24,247 bases of DNA from a virus, in IMG/VR virus record IMGVR_UViG_3300025117_000222, positions 1-24,247 of that record; one strand, given 5' to 3'. Numbering within the stretch: the stretch's first letter is position 1; every line of letters begins with the position of its first letter. The notes under the pieces are model-generated. The model did no database searches and had not been told where the DNA came from. It saw only the letters and a program-made list of their open reading frames with translations. Position numbers and translations under genes: made by a program. This document shows, one piece after another, positions 5,496 through 23,678 of the stretch.

Positions 5496-5948
5496 CTACG
5501 GTACATAATAGACCCCCGTATACCAGGTTGCCCAATCTGTTGTTCTCAAGCCATAGTTCACAAGTTTTTGAGATATTTCTTCTTTTTGCTCAATATATCT
5601 TTTTCTTTTTGCATCTAATCCTTGAGCGTTTGAATGTCTTGTAAAATCTTTATCCTGAAGAAAGTTGTTCATTTGCAAGATGTCATCGATTTCGTGTTCG
5701 AGCCATCTTTTTTTCATTAAATCAGCAAGCATGTTCATGTTTACCTGCGTTAAGGTTTCCGTAAAAGTTGTTCCACTATAAGTTAAAACCTGATCGCAAG
5801 TATCAAATTCAGCAATTGCCGGAATCAACCAGCCTTCAAGGTAAGATTCGAAGTCTGTCAAGCTTGTGTTATAGAGATTTGTAAGTCGATAATCTTCTTG
5901 GAGGGTCATGAATAAATCATATACGCTACTAAAAAGCGTTCCTGTCAT
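5496..5948 (-). CDS. Head-tail connector (adaptor) protein
   Basis: This 150-aa, mostly helical protein has GGAGG before ATG 5948. Features typical of phage DNA-packaging/connector adaptors are an N-terminal 'VYDLFMTLQEDYRL', a central 'YLEGWLIPAIAEFD' and 'ADLMKKRWLEHEI', and a C-terminal coiled region 'KRKRYIEQKEEISQKLVNYG'. Adaptors of this kind form a ring below the portal that closes the head and receives the tail. Context agrees: after the capsid genes and before the tail genes. The stop is TAG, lies inside the next gene's SD, and is in frame with that gene. Confidence 0.65.
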   Translation of the reverse strand: MTGTLFSSVYDLFMTLQEDYRLTNLYNTSLTDFESYLEGWLIPAIAEFDTCDQVLTYSGTTFTETLTQVNMNMLADLMKKRWLEHEIDDILQMNNFLQDKDFTRHSNAQGLDAKRKRYIEQKEEISQKLVNYGLRTTDWATWYTGVYYVP

Positions 5949-6736: not shown

Positions 6737-7627
6737 TTACGATTCTGGGATTATGATTTCGCCAGATTTGATTTTTCTTTGGAACTCGTAAAATTGTTCG
6801 GGAGTGTTATTGCCAGAACCACACATTTTATGGAAAAGCGAATGTATTTCTTTTGTCAAACAAACTCCTAGCGGATATTTATTATGTAAACGAATGGTTT
6901 CATTGGTTATTTCTATTATTTCTTTATCGGAATATTTTCCAATGCTTTCTTTTTCTAATAATCCTAAATTAGAAATACTTTCTCTCAATATCATGTTAAA
7001 TCCATATAAATGGTGAATTACATCAAACCTATTCCCAGAAACAACACACCTGTAATCACAAGCTTTTGCGCTTTCTTTTTTCCATTCGGTAATATTCTTT
7101 TTTACTGAATTAAAAATATCCTCTAATCCGCCTTTCCAGTTCGGGTGTTTACTGCCCCGCCGATTCAAATATTGTTTTATCTTAGTACATGTTTGGCAAT
7201 TATTTTTTCTATAAAAAACAGCCAACGAACAATCTGTTTTATGACCAAATTGGCAAGTATAAATTATTCTAGATTTTTGATTTTTATATCCATCTGGAAA
7301 AGAAACAAACGAAAGGCTGTTTCTTTTTAACATATCCATAATTTTCTCAATAGGAACCCTAGAATCTAAGTCTTGTTTTATTCTCGAACAGACTTTACAT
7401 CTAGTTCCATTTTGGAGACTAGCATAAGATATTTGGTTGGAATGTCCGCACGGAAACAATATAAGCAATTTACTTTTATTATTTACATATTCTCCGCTTA
7501 TATACTTACAGTCAAAACCAATGATACCTTCTATGACTTTCTGCATAGGATTTCTTTTTGTTAAACTAATCTTTTTCCCTCTTTGAATATAGCTTTGTTT
7601 TATGTCTTTGCTCATAAAAAACATCAT
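6737..7627 (-). CDS. Free-standing HNH homing endonuclease with zinc fingers
   Basis: This is a 296-aa protein. Residues ~60-80 (CGH...CKVC) and ~125-147 (CQFGH...CQTC) are two zinc-finger-like DNA-binding modules. 'HPNWKGG' (161-167) and a C-terminal HNH core follow: C194-V-V-S-G, D202-V-I-H205-H206, N211, then H262-S-L-F-H266. The HNH motif is a beta-beta-alpha-metal nuclease that cuts DNA to start gene conversion. The gene sits just downstream of the major capsid gene, which holds an ORF-less group I intron. It has its own promoter, structured leader and terminator, so it looks like a selfish insertion. ATG 7627 follows GAGAGAG; an in-frame ATG at 7615 is an alternative start. Confidence 0.85.
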   Translation of the reverse strand: MMFFMSKDIKQSYIQRGKKISLTKRNPMQKVIEGIIGFDCKYISGEYVNNKSKLLILFPCGHSNQISYASLQNGTRCKVCSRIKQDLDSRVPIEKIMDMLKRNSLSFVSFPDGYKNQKSRIIYTCQFGHKTDCSLAVFYRKNNCQTCTKIKQYLNRRGSKHPNWKGGLEDIFNSVKKNITEWKKESAKACDYRCVVSGNRFDVIHHLYGFNMILRESISNLGLLEKESIGKYSDKEIIEITNETIRLHNKYPLGVCLTKEIHSLFHKMCGSGNNTPEQFYEFQRKIKSGEIIIPES

Positions 7628-12430: not shown

Positions 12431-12901
12431 CTAAGAAAAACTCGCGTCAAATAAAACCAAGTCCTTCACATTCCTTATTTTTAGAGCAAATTCTTGGGCT
12501 TCATCTTCCTCTTTCACCTGCTCAGAAAGCATTTCTAAAATAAAGGGTAAATCAACATATGATTTCAATTCCTGCGCCAACTCGTATAAACTTTCAATTG
12601 ATTCTGTTGTAGATTCCTCAATCTGAATATACAAATCTGCGATTTCAAAGTTTCCTGTTTTTATCTCAGGAGCGGGAACGTCTCCGATAGAAACACTTCC
12701 TCCAGTTCTATCGTTTATATATTGAATAAATCGATTGGCATGAACTTTTTCTTCTTCGGATTGTTTTCTAAAATAAGCGGATAATTTCTTGAGTTGTAAA
12801 TCTTCAAAATAAGATTCGATTTGACTGTATGCCAATTGATTCGAAAACTCTTTTACAACCTCTTGGCATAAAGCGTCATTAAGTGAATTTGATAAGTTCA
12901 C
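12431..12901 (-). CDS. ftn: Ferritin (non-haem, ferroxidase-competent) in the capsid operon
   Basis: This 156-aa four-helix ferritin starts at GTG 12901 behind GGAGG; earlier in-frame ATGs lie in or before a terminator hairpin. The ferroxidase ligands known from bacterial ferritins are all present: E18 (KEFSNQLAY), E51 and H54 (EEEKVHANRF), E95 (IEESTTES), Q128 and E131 (SEQVKEED). Helix-loop blocks match too ('YFEDLQLKKLSAYFRKQS', 'FIQYINDRTGG', 'SLYELAQEL'). Ferritins oxidise Fe(II) and store it in a 24-mer cage. Here it lies between a structural gene and the protease-scaffold gene, so expression should be late. The stop is TAG, in frame with the next ORF. Confidence 0.88.
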   Translation of the reverse strand: MNLSNSLNDALCQEVVKEFSNQLAYSQIESYFEDLQLKKLSAYFRKQSEEEKVHANRFIQYINDRTGGSVSIGDVPAPEIKTGNFEIADLYIQIEESTTESIESLYELAQELKSYVDLPFILEMLSEQVKEEDEAQEFALKIRNVKDLVLFDASFS

Positions 12902-12927
12902 GTCATTCACCTCCAAACATAATATAT

Positions 12928-12955
12928 AATCCCCCACCATTTTCGATGGGGGATT
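12928..12955 (-). terminator. Strong hairpin terminator upstream of the ferritin
   Basis: AATCCCCCA and TGGGGGATT form a 9-bp perfect stem with a 10-nt loop, followed on the minus strand by ATATATTATG. It lies between the 215-aa structural gene and the ferritin SD. Ferritin expression must therefore depend on read-through or on an unseen promoter. Confidence 0.7.
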
Positions 12956-12978
12956 AATTTGAAAACACACGAATTAAA

Positions 12979-15412: not shown

Positions 15413-16561
15413 TCATAATCCTAATTCTTTTGTAAGAATTTTCTCAATGTTATTAAATTCCCAATATGGAATTCTTAAAATATTTATTCTATTGTGTTTA
15501 CAAAACTCATTTTTTATAGCGTCTCTTTTTTTGCCAGCGTCAAAGTGTTTCTGCTCGACATCCTTTTTTCTGTAGGGTCTGTAATGCAATTCACCATCAT
15601 ATTCTAAAACAAAAGAAATTTTTGTTTTTTCACAATTTTCATATATTATAAAATCAAAGATTAAATGTTTTATATATTTGCAACCCGGTATTGATCTATG
15701 TTGATTGTAAAAAATACCATTTTTTCTTAAGAAAGAATCTATCTTCTTTTCCCCTTTGGATTCACAACACTTCGGACAACCCTTTCCGCCAACTCTATTG
15801 GCGCAATCGGAAGGATAACCATGACCGCACTTTGGGCAAATCCAATAATAACCGCCACTCCCCTGGGATGCAACACGAGACGGAATAGTTTTATTTTTAG
15901 AATAGTCCCATTCTTTTGCTATCTCTGGATATAAATATTCTAAATTATTATATTTTCCTATTCTGTGACTGGCACAAAATGGACACCCATTCCCTTTTGT
16001 AAACTGATGCCAAGACATTGGAAATTCTTTCTCGCCACAAACGGAACAATCGAACAATAAATCGTCTGATGTTCCCACATATTTCTGGTTTTCGCAAAGC
16101 GAAAGATGCAAATTATTTTTGTGCAACCATAATCTTATGTTTTCTATTGAATAATCATTTCCCTTGTTAACTATGGAAAATCCAATCCCGGATTCATAAT
16201 TTGTTCGTATGTGTTCAAATGAGAGGCTATAAAAATACCCATTGGAATCTTTAAATTTCATTTTTGTTTTTGCTGTAATGGCATATTGTTTTTCACAAAG
16301 AATCAAATCAATATCTCTATAACTAAACCACAAATGTATATTTTCTATTCTAAAAGGATTTGACATATGGAACTTGTCAAAAGAAAATCCCATTCTTATA
16401 GATTTAATGATGATTCTGAATCTTAATGCATATTTATACCCATCAGAATCGGAAAAATAAATTTGCTTTGGGGAAGAAAATCCTTCGTTATCTAGTAATT
16501 TCAAGTTTGTATTATTAAAAAATTCCTCCACAAATCTATTTGAATAATCTATTTTTTCCAT
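15413..16561 (-). CDS. Homing endonuclease with zinc ribbons and a PD-(D/E)XK/Vsr-like nuclease domain
   Basis: This 382-aa protein has AGGAG before ATG 16561. Two ~60-aa repeats (~36-95 and ~100-160) each carry 'GY-Y-L-F' and 'IEN-LW' and probably contact DNA. Two zinc ribbons follow: C172/C175 with C193/C196, and C242/C245 with C262/C265. The C-terminus (~271-382) is nuclease-like: 'LIFDFIIYE' (D303), 'VLEYDGELHY' (E320, H326), 'KKRDAIKNEFC' and 'ILRIPYWEF'. This is the arrangement of Vsr/EDxHD-type homing nucleases. It is wedged between terminase and portal, two conserved genes, with its own promoter, structured leader and terminator. It is presumably a selfish element that drives replacement of the allele lacking it. 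Confidence 0.8.
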   Translation of the reverse strand: MEKIDYSNRFVEEFFNNTNLKLLDNEGFSSPKQIYFSDSDGYKYALRFRIIIKSIRMGFSFDKFHMSNPFRIENIHLWFSYRDIDLILCEKQYAITAKTKMKFKDSNGYFYSLSFEHIRTNYESGIGFSIVNKGNDYSIENIRLWLHKNNLHLSLCENQKYVGTSDDLLFDCSVCGEKEFPMSWHQFTKGNGCPFCASHRIGKYNNLEYLYPEIAKEWDYSKNKTIPSRVASQGSGGYYWICPKCGHGYPSDCANRVGGKGCPKCCESKGEKKIDSFLRKNGIFYNQHRSIPGCKYIKHLIFDFIIYENCEKTKISFVLEYDGELHYRPYRKKDVEQKHFDAGKKRDAIKNEFCKHNRINILRIPYWEFNNIEKILTKELGL

Positions 16562-16658: not shown

Positions 16659-16687
16659 ATTATACCACAAACTTCTAATCTTGTCAA
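16659..16687 (-). promoter_or_regulatory. Consensus sigma-70 promoter for the second homing endonuclease
   Basis: TTGACA, a 17-nt spacer and TATAAT, with TGG before the -10 (extended -10). The -35 box lies just after the terminase TAG stop; its TTGA contains the backup TGA in the terminase frame. The spacer end AGTTTGTGG matches the promoter at 7735-7763. Confidence 0.9.
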
Positions 16688-22218: not shown

Positions 22219-22248
22219 TGTTGATCTCCTATTGTTTAGTCTTTATTG

Positions 22249-22319
22249 CTGGCAGAAGTTGAATCGAACAACCGACTTCTAGTTTAGAGCTAGATATTTT
22301 ACCACTAAACCATCCGCCA
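22249..22319 (-). tRNA. Amber suppressor tRNA (anticodon CTA), glutamine-type body
   Basis: This is a full 71-nt cloverleaf. Acceptor TGGCGGA/TCTGCCA (7 bp), D-arm GTTT-AGTGGTA-AAAT, anticodon arm TCTAG-CTCTAAA-CTAGA (5 perfect bp) with CTA at 34-36, variable AGTC, T-arm GGTTG-TTCGATT-CAACT. The anticodon reads UAG. The weak U1-A72 pair, G73 discriminator and U35 are known glutaminyl-tRNA synthetase identity elements, so it probably inserts Gln. No CCA is encoded. It is transcribed between a 64-aa ORF and the exonuclease. Confidence 0.9.
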
Positions 22320-22562: not shown

Positions 22563-22634
22563 CAGGCCTTCCAGTGTTCGGGACTGGGAAGCAGGGGTTG
22601 GAATCCTGCGGTTTACCTCTGAGCCTAAAGGCCT
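22563..22634 (-). tRNA. tRNA-Trp (CCA anticodon)
   Basis: This is a 72-nt cloverleaf. Acceptor AGGCCTT/AAGGCCT (7 perfect bp), A1-U72 and G73 as in bacterial tRNA-Trp, positions 8-9 TA, D-arm GGCT...AACC (3 of 4 pairs), anticodon arm CAGGA-TTCCAAC-CCCTG with CCA and one A-C mismatch at the loop end, T-arm CCAGT-CCCGAAC-ACTGG. The T-loop has CC in place of TT. Its first ten nt are the last coding bases and TAG stop of the toxin gene. No CCA tail is encoded. Confidence 0.72.
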
Positions 22635-23107
22635 ATTGACAACAACTCTTTCTCTATTTTTAGAACATCTGGAAGAATAATTCTCGCACCCATTCTTTGT
22701 AAATTTAGAACCCTTTTCGCGGACACGATTATACTATTGGCAAAAGCCCCATCCAACACGGGGTGCGTCCTATCTGCCCCAACATATTCAGACTCTATAT
22801 AGTCAAAGGTTGATGGGCACATATTCTGCACCAAAAAAACCTTATTTTTACCAAAGATGCTCCCAAAGAAAATAGTATCACATCTACCATACTTTTTTAT
22901 TTTTGTCTCTCTAATTTTCTCAAACTTTGAGATATTAGAAGAAATAGGTATCATCCAAAAAAGATTTGTTTTATTGTCTAAGAAAGAATAAAAACAGGGT
23001 CTACCGTGTTTCTGCCCACCAACAGATTCCTTGTTCTGCATAAGATATGGGTCTTGAAATCTTTCAAAATATTCGTCTTTTAAAAAATAAAAATGTCCAA
23101 TATCCAT
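22625..23107 (-). CDS. Type III toxin-antitoxin toxin, ToxN/AbiQ/CptN-like endoribonuclease
   Basis: This is a 160-aa protein starting MDIGHFYFLKDEYFERF at ATG 23107 (SD AAAGGG); a longer reading to 23182 would run through the repeats. Blocks I recognise from CptN/ToxN-like toxins are 'DPYLMQNKE', 'GRPCFYSF', 'FWMIPISSNISKFEKI', 'CDTIFFG', 'VFLVQNMCP', 'AKRVLNLQRMGARIILPDVL'. ToxN toxins are sequence-specific RNases held inactive by a repeat RNA that they themselves process. Upstream are two 48-nt repeats and a hairpin terminator, the classic type III order. Family-level identification is from memory of motifs, so the subfamily is uncertain. Confidence 0.7.
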   Translation of the reverse strand: MDIGHFYFLKDEYFERFQDPYLMQNKESVGGQKHGRPCFYSFLDNKTNLFWMIPISSNISKFEKIRETKIKKYGRCDTIFFGSIFGKNKVFLVQNMCPSTFDYIESEYVGADRTHPVLDGAFANSIIVSAKRVLNLQRMGARIILPDVLKIEKELLSIGL

Positions 23108-23129: not shown

Positions 23130-23149
23130 GGGAGTCGTTTCCGACTCCC
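23130..23149 (-). terminator. Terminator/attenuator between antitoxin repeats and toxin gene
   Basis: GGGAGTCG-GAAA-CGACTCCC is an 8-bp perfect hairpin with a GNRA loop, 12 nt after the second repeat and 22 nt before the toxin ATG. The following CGATAAAATC is only weakly U-rich. That suits a leaky attenuator, which in type III systems keeps antitoxin RNA in excess over toxin mRNA. Confidence 0.75.
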
Positions 23150-23160
23150 TAAGATTTGTG

Positions 23161-23256
23161 CATGGCATCTTGTATCCCGCATACCACGTAGCGGACAATA
23201 TTAGTTTCTTGGCATCTTATATCCCGCTATACCAAGTAGCGGCAAACATTTGTTTC
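23161..23256 (-). repeat. Two 48-nt tandem repeats: putative type III antitoxin RNA
   Basis: The units are 23256-23209 and 23208-23161. Both begin GAAAC and share CCGCTAC, TGGTAT, GCGGGATA and AAGATGCCA, roughly 80% identical. Each contains a small hairpin: CCGCTA/TAGCGG in the first, CCGC/GCGG in the second, with the flank changed so that pairing is kept. Antitoxin RNAs of type III systems are arrays of such units, each folding into a pseudoknot that binds one toxin monomer. Long units in low copy number are reported for CptIN-like systems. Confidence 0.72.
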
Positions 23257-23274
23257 AGAAAGTCGAAACTTTCT
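23257..23274 (-). promoter_or_regulatory. UUCG hairpin between tRNA-Ala and the antitoxin repeats
   Basis: AGAAAGT-TTCG-ACTTTCT is a perfect 7-bp stem capped by the very stable UUCG tetraloop, placed 2 nt after tRNA-Ala and directly before repeat 1. It is likely a processing or stability element that separates the two RNAs. Confidence 0.55.
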
Positions 23275-23276
23275 AG

Positions 23277-23350
23277 TGGAACTGGAAGATTATGATTCTT
23301 CAACCTTCTCTTTGCAAAAGAGTTGCTCTCCCACATTGAGCTACAATCCC
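23277..23350 (-). tRNA. tRNA-Ala (TGC anticodon) with divergent T-loop
   Basis: This is a 74-nt cloverleaf. Acceptor GGGATTG/CAGTTCC with G3-U70, the main alanyl-tRNA synthetase identity pair, and A73. D-arm GCTC...GAGC, anticodon arm ACTCT-TTTGCAA-AGAGA giving TGC, variable AGGTT, T-arm GAAGA-ATCATAA-TCTTC. The T-loop lacks the usual TTC, so tertiary folding may be altered. No CCA is encoded. It is transcribed from the tandem promoters ahead of the antitoxin repeats. Confidence 0.8.
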
Positions 23351-23351
23351 A

Positions 23352-23565
23352 TTTTAGGGCATATTTCAGTCCCCGTTGCAAGTTTCTACGCAGTCTCCCA
23401 TAGCTCCTCAGGAATACCCAAGGCGGTCTTAACGACTCTATGAAACTTGCAAACAGTCTTTATGCTGGTAGTTGTGCCTTCACGTCTTTACCCTCCCATA
23501 TCGGCTCTGGGAAAGACCAGCAAGATTGAGGAACGAACATCTTATTCATCGACATTTGAGCATGA
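23352..23565 (-). ncRNA. Putative structured noncoding RNA upstream of tRNA-Ala
   Basis: This stretch between the second tandem promoter and tRNA-Ala has no credible ORF but dense pairing. A perfect 11-bp stem TTGCAAGTTTC/GAAACTTGCAA encloses about 55 nt that itself holds CATAG/CTATG and smaller stems. TGCTGGT/ACCAGCA encloses CCCA/TGGG and CTTT/AAAG. GATTGAGGA, upstream of the second promoter, pairs with TCCTCAATC downstream of it, but only in transcripts from the first promoter. It could be a regulatory RNA, a riboswitch-like leader, or a trans-acting phage RNA. No known family was recognised. Confidence 0.5.
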
Positions 23566-23567
23566 AT

Positions 23568-23596
23568 ATTATAGCATAACTTTGAACTTTTGTCAA
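23568..23596 (-). promoter_or_regulatory. Strong sigma-70 promoter, proximal (accessory unit)
   Basis: TTGACA, a 17-nt spacer and TATAAT, matching consensus exactly. It should drive the structured RNA, tRNA-Ala, antitoxin repeats and, by leakage, the toxin and downstream genes. Confidence 0.9.
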
Positions 23597-23649
23597 GTAG
23601 CAATATTCCTCAGCTTCGTAGGGCTTACCTGTCCTCAATCCTATCGTAG

Positions 23650-23678
23650 ATTCTACCACATATCTATTTGTTTGTCAA
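23650..23678 (-). promoter_or_regulatory. Strong sigma-70 promoter, distal (accessory unit)
   Basis: TTGACA, a 17-nt spacer and TAGAAT, with ATGTGG before the -10 as in the endonuclease promoters (TGn). It lies 82 nt upstream of the proximal promoter, so two transcripts with different 5' ends are expected. Confidence 0.85.

Follow-up and report, generated by a model that had tools for sequence, protein, structure and literature searches.

In a 24,247-bp fragment of a large phage, which is a whole IMG/VR record and is called the window below, a non-coding region lies between two strong tandem promoters and a tRNA-Ala gene that is followed by a CptIN type III toxin-antitoxin module. We read this region, with a probability of about one half, as a structured leader at the 5' end of a composite transcript that carries tRNA-Ala and CptIN. 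The observations that bear directly on this reading are the promoter matches, the fold statistics, the match to CptN, the CptI-like repeats, and the displacement of the promoters relative to other CptIN loci; transcription, start sites, processing, and function of the unit running from P1/P2 to CptN are predictions from the sequence. Taken as a prediction, the proposal of a first-pass annotation, a structured and apparently non-coding transcript ahead of tRNA-Ala and an RNA antitoxin, has good support. The feature that stands out is a tRNA placed between the promoters and the RNA antitoxin.

Promoters and the folded leader

For the terminase of the phage, the nearest counterparts are from Thomasclavelia, Lysinibacillus, and SPbeta-like phages of Firmicutes; for its capsid protein, they are from Enterocloster phages. 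All likely genes of the window are on the minus strand. Along that strand, a collagen-like tail gene is followed by promoters P1 and P2, the leader, tRNA-Ala(TGC), a small hairpin, two 47-nt repeats, a second hairpin, and a CptN-family toxin gene (Table 1). Beyond the toxin come a small ORF, a tRNA with a CTA anticodon, an exonuclease gene (phrog_403), several small genes, a gene that is conserved next to the terminase in relatives, and then the large terminase.

Table 1. Features between promoter P1 and the CptN-family toxin, in window coordinates
Feature	Position	Strand	Remarks
Promoter P1	23650..23678	-	TTGACA-17-TAGAAT, TG before -10, 11/12
5' segment unique to P1 transcript	23563..23644	-	holds GATTGAGGA
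Promoter P2	23568..23596	-	TTGACA-17-TATAAT, TG before -10, 12/12
Structured non-coding leader from P2	23352..23562	-	predicted start site
Domain B	23462..23522	-	GCUGGU...ACCAGC closing helix and inner hairpins; pairing probability mostly 0.8-1.0
Domain C	23376..23452	-	11-bp perfect stem TTGCAAGTTTC/GAAACTTGCAA and inner 7-bp hairpin
tRNA-Ala (TGC)	23276..23350	-	T-loop AUCAUAA (usual UUCRANU); no encoded CCA
Hairpin directly 3' of tRNA-Ala	23257..23274	-	7 bp, AGAAAGT-TTCG-ACTTTCT
Two CptI-type antitoxin repeats, 47 nt each	23158..23251	-	repeat search and CptIN-like layout
Hairpin after repeats	23130..23149	-	GGGAGTCG-GAAA-CGACTCCC; terminator position, no T run
CptN-family toxin	22625..23107	-	NCBIfam NF047359, 181 bits (cut-off 90); PDB 4rmo, E 3.8e-20

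Both tRNAs have peculiarities of their own. In the T-loop of tRNA-Ala, the usual U54 and A58 are apparently swapped to A and U. The CTA-anticodon tRNA (22248-22319, minus strand) is called as tRNA-Pyl by ARAGORN, has a U1-A72 end as in tRNA-Gln, and is likely an amber suppressor. Despite this likely suppressor, 10 of the 29 listed genes stop with TAG; in two of these, 5496-5948 and 12431-12970, read-through would enter the next gene in frame.

Two consensus promoters 82 bp apart had been reported at the head of the region, and both are indeed present on the minus strand, each with an extended -10 sequence; they also have a common 16-nt block at a spacing of 82. The 24-kb window contains four promoter sites of at least 11/12, all on the gene strand, and P1 and P2 are two of these. 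The remaining two, at 16687 and 7763 (minus strand), are just ahead of two genes, probably accessory (15413-16561 and 6737-7627), which by eye resemble homing or HNH-type nucleases. From P2 to the CptI repeats, the terminator search gave no intrinsic terminator. Likewise, no promoter of at least 10/12 was found between tRNA-Ala and the repeats; the nearest is a weak 9/12 site within tRNA-Ala, which could act as a promoter for CptI.

The leader, which tRNA-Ala follows as the first-pass annotation had it, would measure about 210 nt from the P2 start or 290 nt from the P1 start. It contains only tiny frames, and no minus-strand frame of at least 50 aa lies wholly between P2 and the tRNA, in keeping with the earlier view that there is no ORF here. 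A hidden or decayed protein was considered for one frame (...HRVVKTALGIPEELWETA) that reads as protein-like, and was rejected: the frame lacks an ATG or GTG start, and among phages its only tblastn match was at E 9.

The perfect 11-bp stem of domain C, also noticed at first pass, is an inverted repeat of 23376-23386 with 23442-23452 that was matched in 1 of 200 dinucleotide shuffles of the 211-nt RNA and in 0 of 200 of the 293-nt RNA. Folded whole, the transcripts are mildly to moderately unusual relative to shuffles, with z of -1.54 for the P2 RNA and -2.24 for the P1 RNA. Whole-transcript values of only -1.5 to -2.2 would suit an ordinary 5' untranslated spacer, left with no selected structure when CptIN and tRNA-Ala were brought next to existing promoters. 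Such a spacer would also agree with the finding that intergenic regions of related phages generally fold about equally well, and with the lack of any conservation found (see below). Nevertheless, we consider a spacer doubtful, since shuffles seldom match either the 11-bp stem or the core fold: a 154-nt core, although picked after the fold was seen, has a z of -2.82, and only 1 of 200 shuffles is as good.

A CptIN module with displaced promoters

The antitoxin placed after the tRNA by the first-pass annotation is part of a CptIN type III toxin-antitoxin module. Directly upstream of the CptN-family toxin are two copies of a CptI-like repeat at a 47-nt spacing, with a core identity of 17/18 nt. 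The module is like the reference CptIN operon, that of Eubacterium rectale (PDB 4rmo; PMC4627078), in its CptN-family toxin, its two tandem CptI-like repeats directly upstream, and the hairpin between repeats and toxin. It is unlike the reference operon in two respects: its promoters are displaced by the structured leader and tRNA-Ala, and its post-repeat hairpin is without a T run. This hairpin (23149-23130) has a very stable stem and was not called by the terminator search. Most other CptIN loci have the T run, and toxin expression may be less restrained in the window.

For comparison, about 30 other CptIN loci were drawn from IMG/VR and from sampled genomes of two classes. Searches with the CptI repeat pattern or with the window's CptN alone returned no viral relatives; a search with a CptN alignment returned 20. 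In the other loci, a consensus-like promoter is usually present just before the repeats, its -10 ending in most cases 126-254 nt ahead of the toxin start. In none of the about 30 is there a tRNA upstream of the CptI repeats. In the window, by contrast, the leader and tRNA-Ala intervene, and the good promoters lie 460 and 542 nt ahead of the toxin start. There is no good promoter directly before the repeats, the only closer site being the 9/12 site inside tRNA-Ala.

At one viral CptIN locus, L136, a 12/12 promoter is likewise far upstream, and about 200 nt of folded non-coding sequence (2094-2300) separates it from the CptI repeats. This insert is missing from its relative L132 and has no Rfam match, and its sequence and that of the window's leader are not alike.

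Relatives of the leader and structured RNAs before tRNAs

The leader is, as had been noted, of other sequence than GOLLD and ROOL: Rfam searches of the window, run at the gathering score and again with E values up to 10 allowed, gave tRNA only, with no covariance match to GOLLD or ROOL even at the looser threshold. With blastn, no relatives of the leader were found among 50,697 phage records and 72,556 plasmids, and the phage matches were only to tRNA-Ala. The exact stem pattern had no match in IMG/VR; a gapped version had seven, none of which resembles the leader. No leader relative was found by nhmmer across 84 terminase-bearing loci, nor by a covariance model (R2) applied to 32 records, 81 loci, and 391 Clostridia-class genomes. 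Two weak covariance matches in the 391 genomes were set aside: at E about 0.06 per genome they are fewer than expected by chance, one (L155) is inside an ORF, and neither has a nearby tRNA. BLAST across 31 whole relative records gave no leader body, and the recurring matches in the region are promoter pieces. Nor did about 100 related phage or prophage loci give the body of the RNA; only the promoters recur. Because no second member turned up in the collections searched, a new RNA family is not demonstrated; within these collections, the folded RNA is a one-off rather than a proven new family.

This absence also weighs against a stable stand-alone phage RNA that would form its own family, act in trans with a protein, a host RNA, or the toxin as target, and merely be located beside a tRNA. 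GOLLD and ROOL adjoin tRNA genes in this way, and GOLLD is often over 800 nt long (PMC12286853). That position, together with two strong promoters, a perfect 11-bp stem, a core fold that beats 199 of 200 shuffles, and the lack of a protein-coding frame of note, would fit such an RNA. However, the leader is without a terminator of its own before the tRNA and there is no sign of a partner, and with no second member at hand we consider a stand-alone RNA unlikely. From the earlier comparison with GOLLD and ROOL, what holds is that the leader is much smaller (about 210-290 nt) and of different sequence; the likeness, that of a structured non-coding phage RNA beside a tRNA, is positional only. Unlike them, the leader has no known relatives and is 5' in the same predicted transcript as one tRNA.

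Structured sequence before tRNAs is also seen in related phages. Stems of at least 9 Watson-Crick pairs that end 3-15 nt before the next gene precede 13 of 33 first tRNAs versus 34 of 219 protein genes (Fisher p 0.002). The window itself gave no match in this stem-position test: with 25 nt between its 11-bp stem and the tRNA, it falls beyond the 3-15 nt range enriched in relatives and is therefore not a clear case of a pre-tRNA stem. Fold energy upstream of tRNAs does not differ significantly from that of other intergenic regions (p 0.14); an initial signal (p 6e-7) was discarded, since its control was mostly coding DNA and an intergenic control gave the former value. The pre-tRNA stems of the relatives lend modest, indirect support to a processing or insulating role of the window's leader.

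In two related phages, L036 (6695-6845) and L043 (521-662), a conserved two-domain structured element without an Rfam match is found directly before a tRNA. Between the two, none of 38 predicted pairs is broken, 7 are variable, and 1 is altered on both sides; in L020/L028, one A-T to T-A exchange preserves a pair. Distant homology of the window's leader to the L036/L043 element, suggested by eye (ACCAG...GUUUG...), was unsupported by the covariance model of that element (R1), which had no match in the window with filters on and, once these were off, reached -1.2 bits at domain C.

The predicted composite transcript

A bolder version of the composite transcript holds that the leader represents a new phage RNA class, joined to the 5' side of a tRNA and an RNA antitoxin. 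The folding or processing of such an RNA would set antitoxin release and so couple tRNA maturation to toxin control. We regard this as quite unlikely.

The first-pass annotation had further proposed that the P1 and P2 transcripts fold differently through pairing of GATTGAGGA with TCCTCAATC. The pairing is possible, yet the argument from it is weak, since stems of at least 9 bp arise in 17 of 200 shuffles (8.5%) of equal length. The difference in fold did not hold up: core pairs are equally probable in both RNAs (0.9-1.0 for the main stems), and apart from a few weak pairs only the 5' segment changes. Because domains B and C keep their helix probabilities in both RNAs, the difference is confined to the 5' end. 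A promoter-selected RNA switch that sets the level of tRNA or antitoxin is thus highly improbable, for even though the pairing has a probability of about 0.7-1.0 on the long RNA, a 9-bp pairing of such kind is expected at the above frequency, the helices adjoining the tRNA are the same in both RNAs, and no terminator or start site is sequestered.

In the composite transcript that we favor, host-type RNA polymerase would start at P2 (and P1) and produce a single RNA in the order leader (about 210 or 290 nt), tRNA-Ala, CptI repeats, CptN toxin; gene order and strand from P1 to CptN are all consistent with one unit. RNase P would then cut at the 5' end of tRNA-Ala and free the leader as a separate folded RNA, and a cut 3' of tRNA-Ala would free a CptI precursor to be trimmed by CptN. 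The leader would thus serve processing or stability, and its main job is probably local: by protecting and insulating the transcript's head, it would let tRNA-Ala and the antitoxin, for which no other good promoter is apparent, be produced and mature. Against this reading, a processing signal would not require a leader of such length and complexity.

The tRNA cluster of phage T4 gives rise to the small stable RNAs C and D (species 2 and 1), which are non-tRNA RNAs from the tRNA transcript. The leader, as predicted, would likewise be a non-tRNA RNA from a phage tRNA transcript, although host and phage group are different.

The leader is a further candidate for the small set of tRNA-adjoining phage RNAs. 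If tRNA and antitoxin do share a transcript, the antitoxin would rely on tRNA-processing enzymes for its 5' end as well as its supply; none of the other CptIN loci examined shows such a link.
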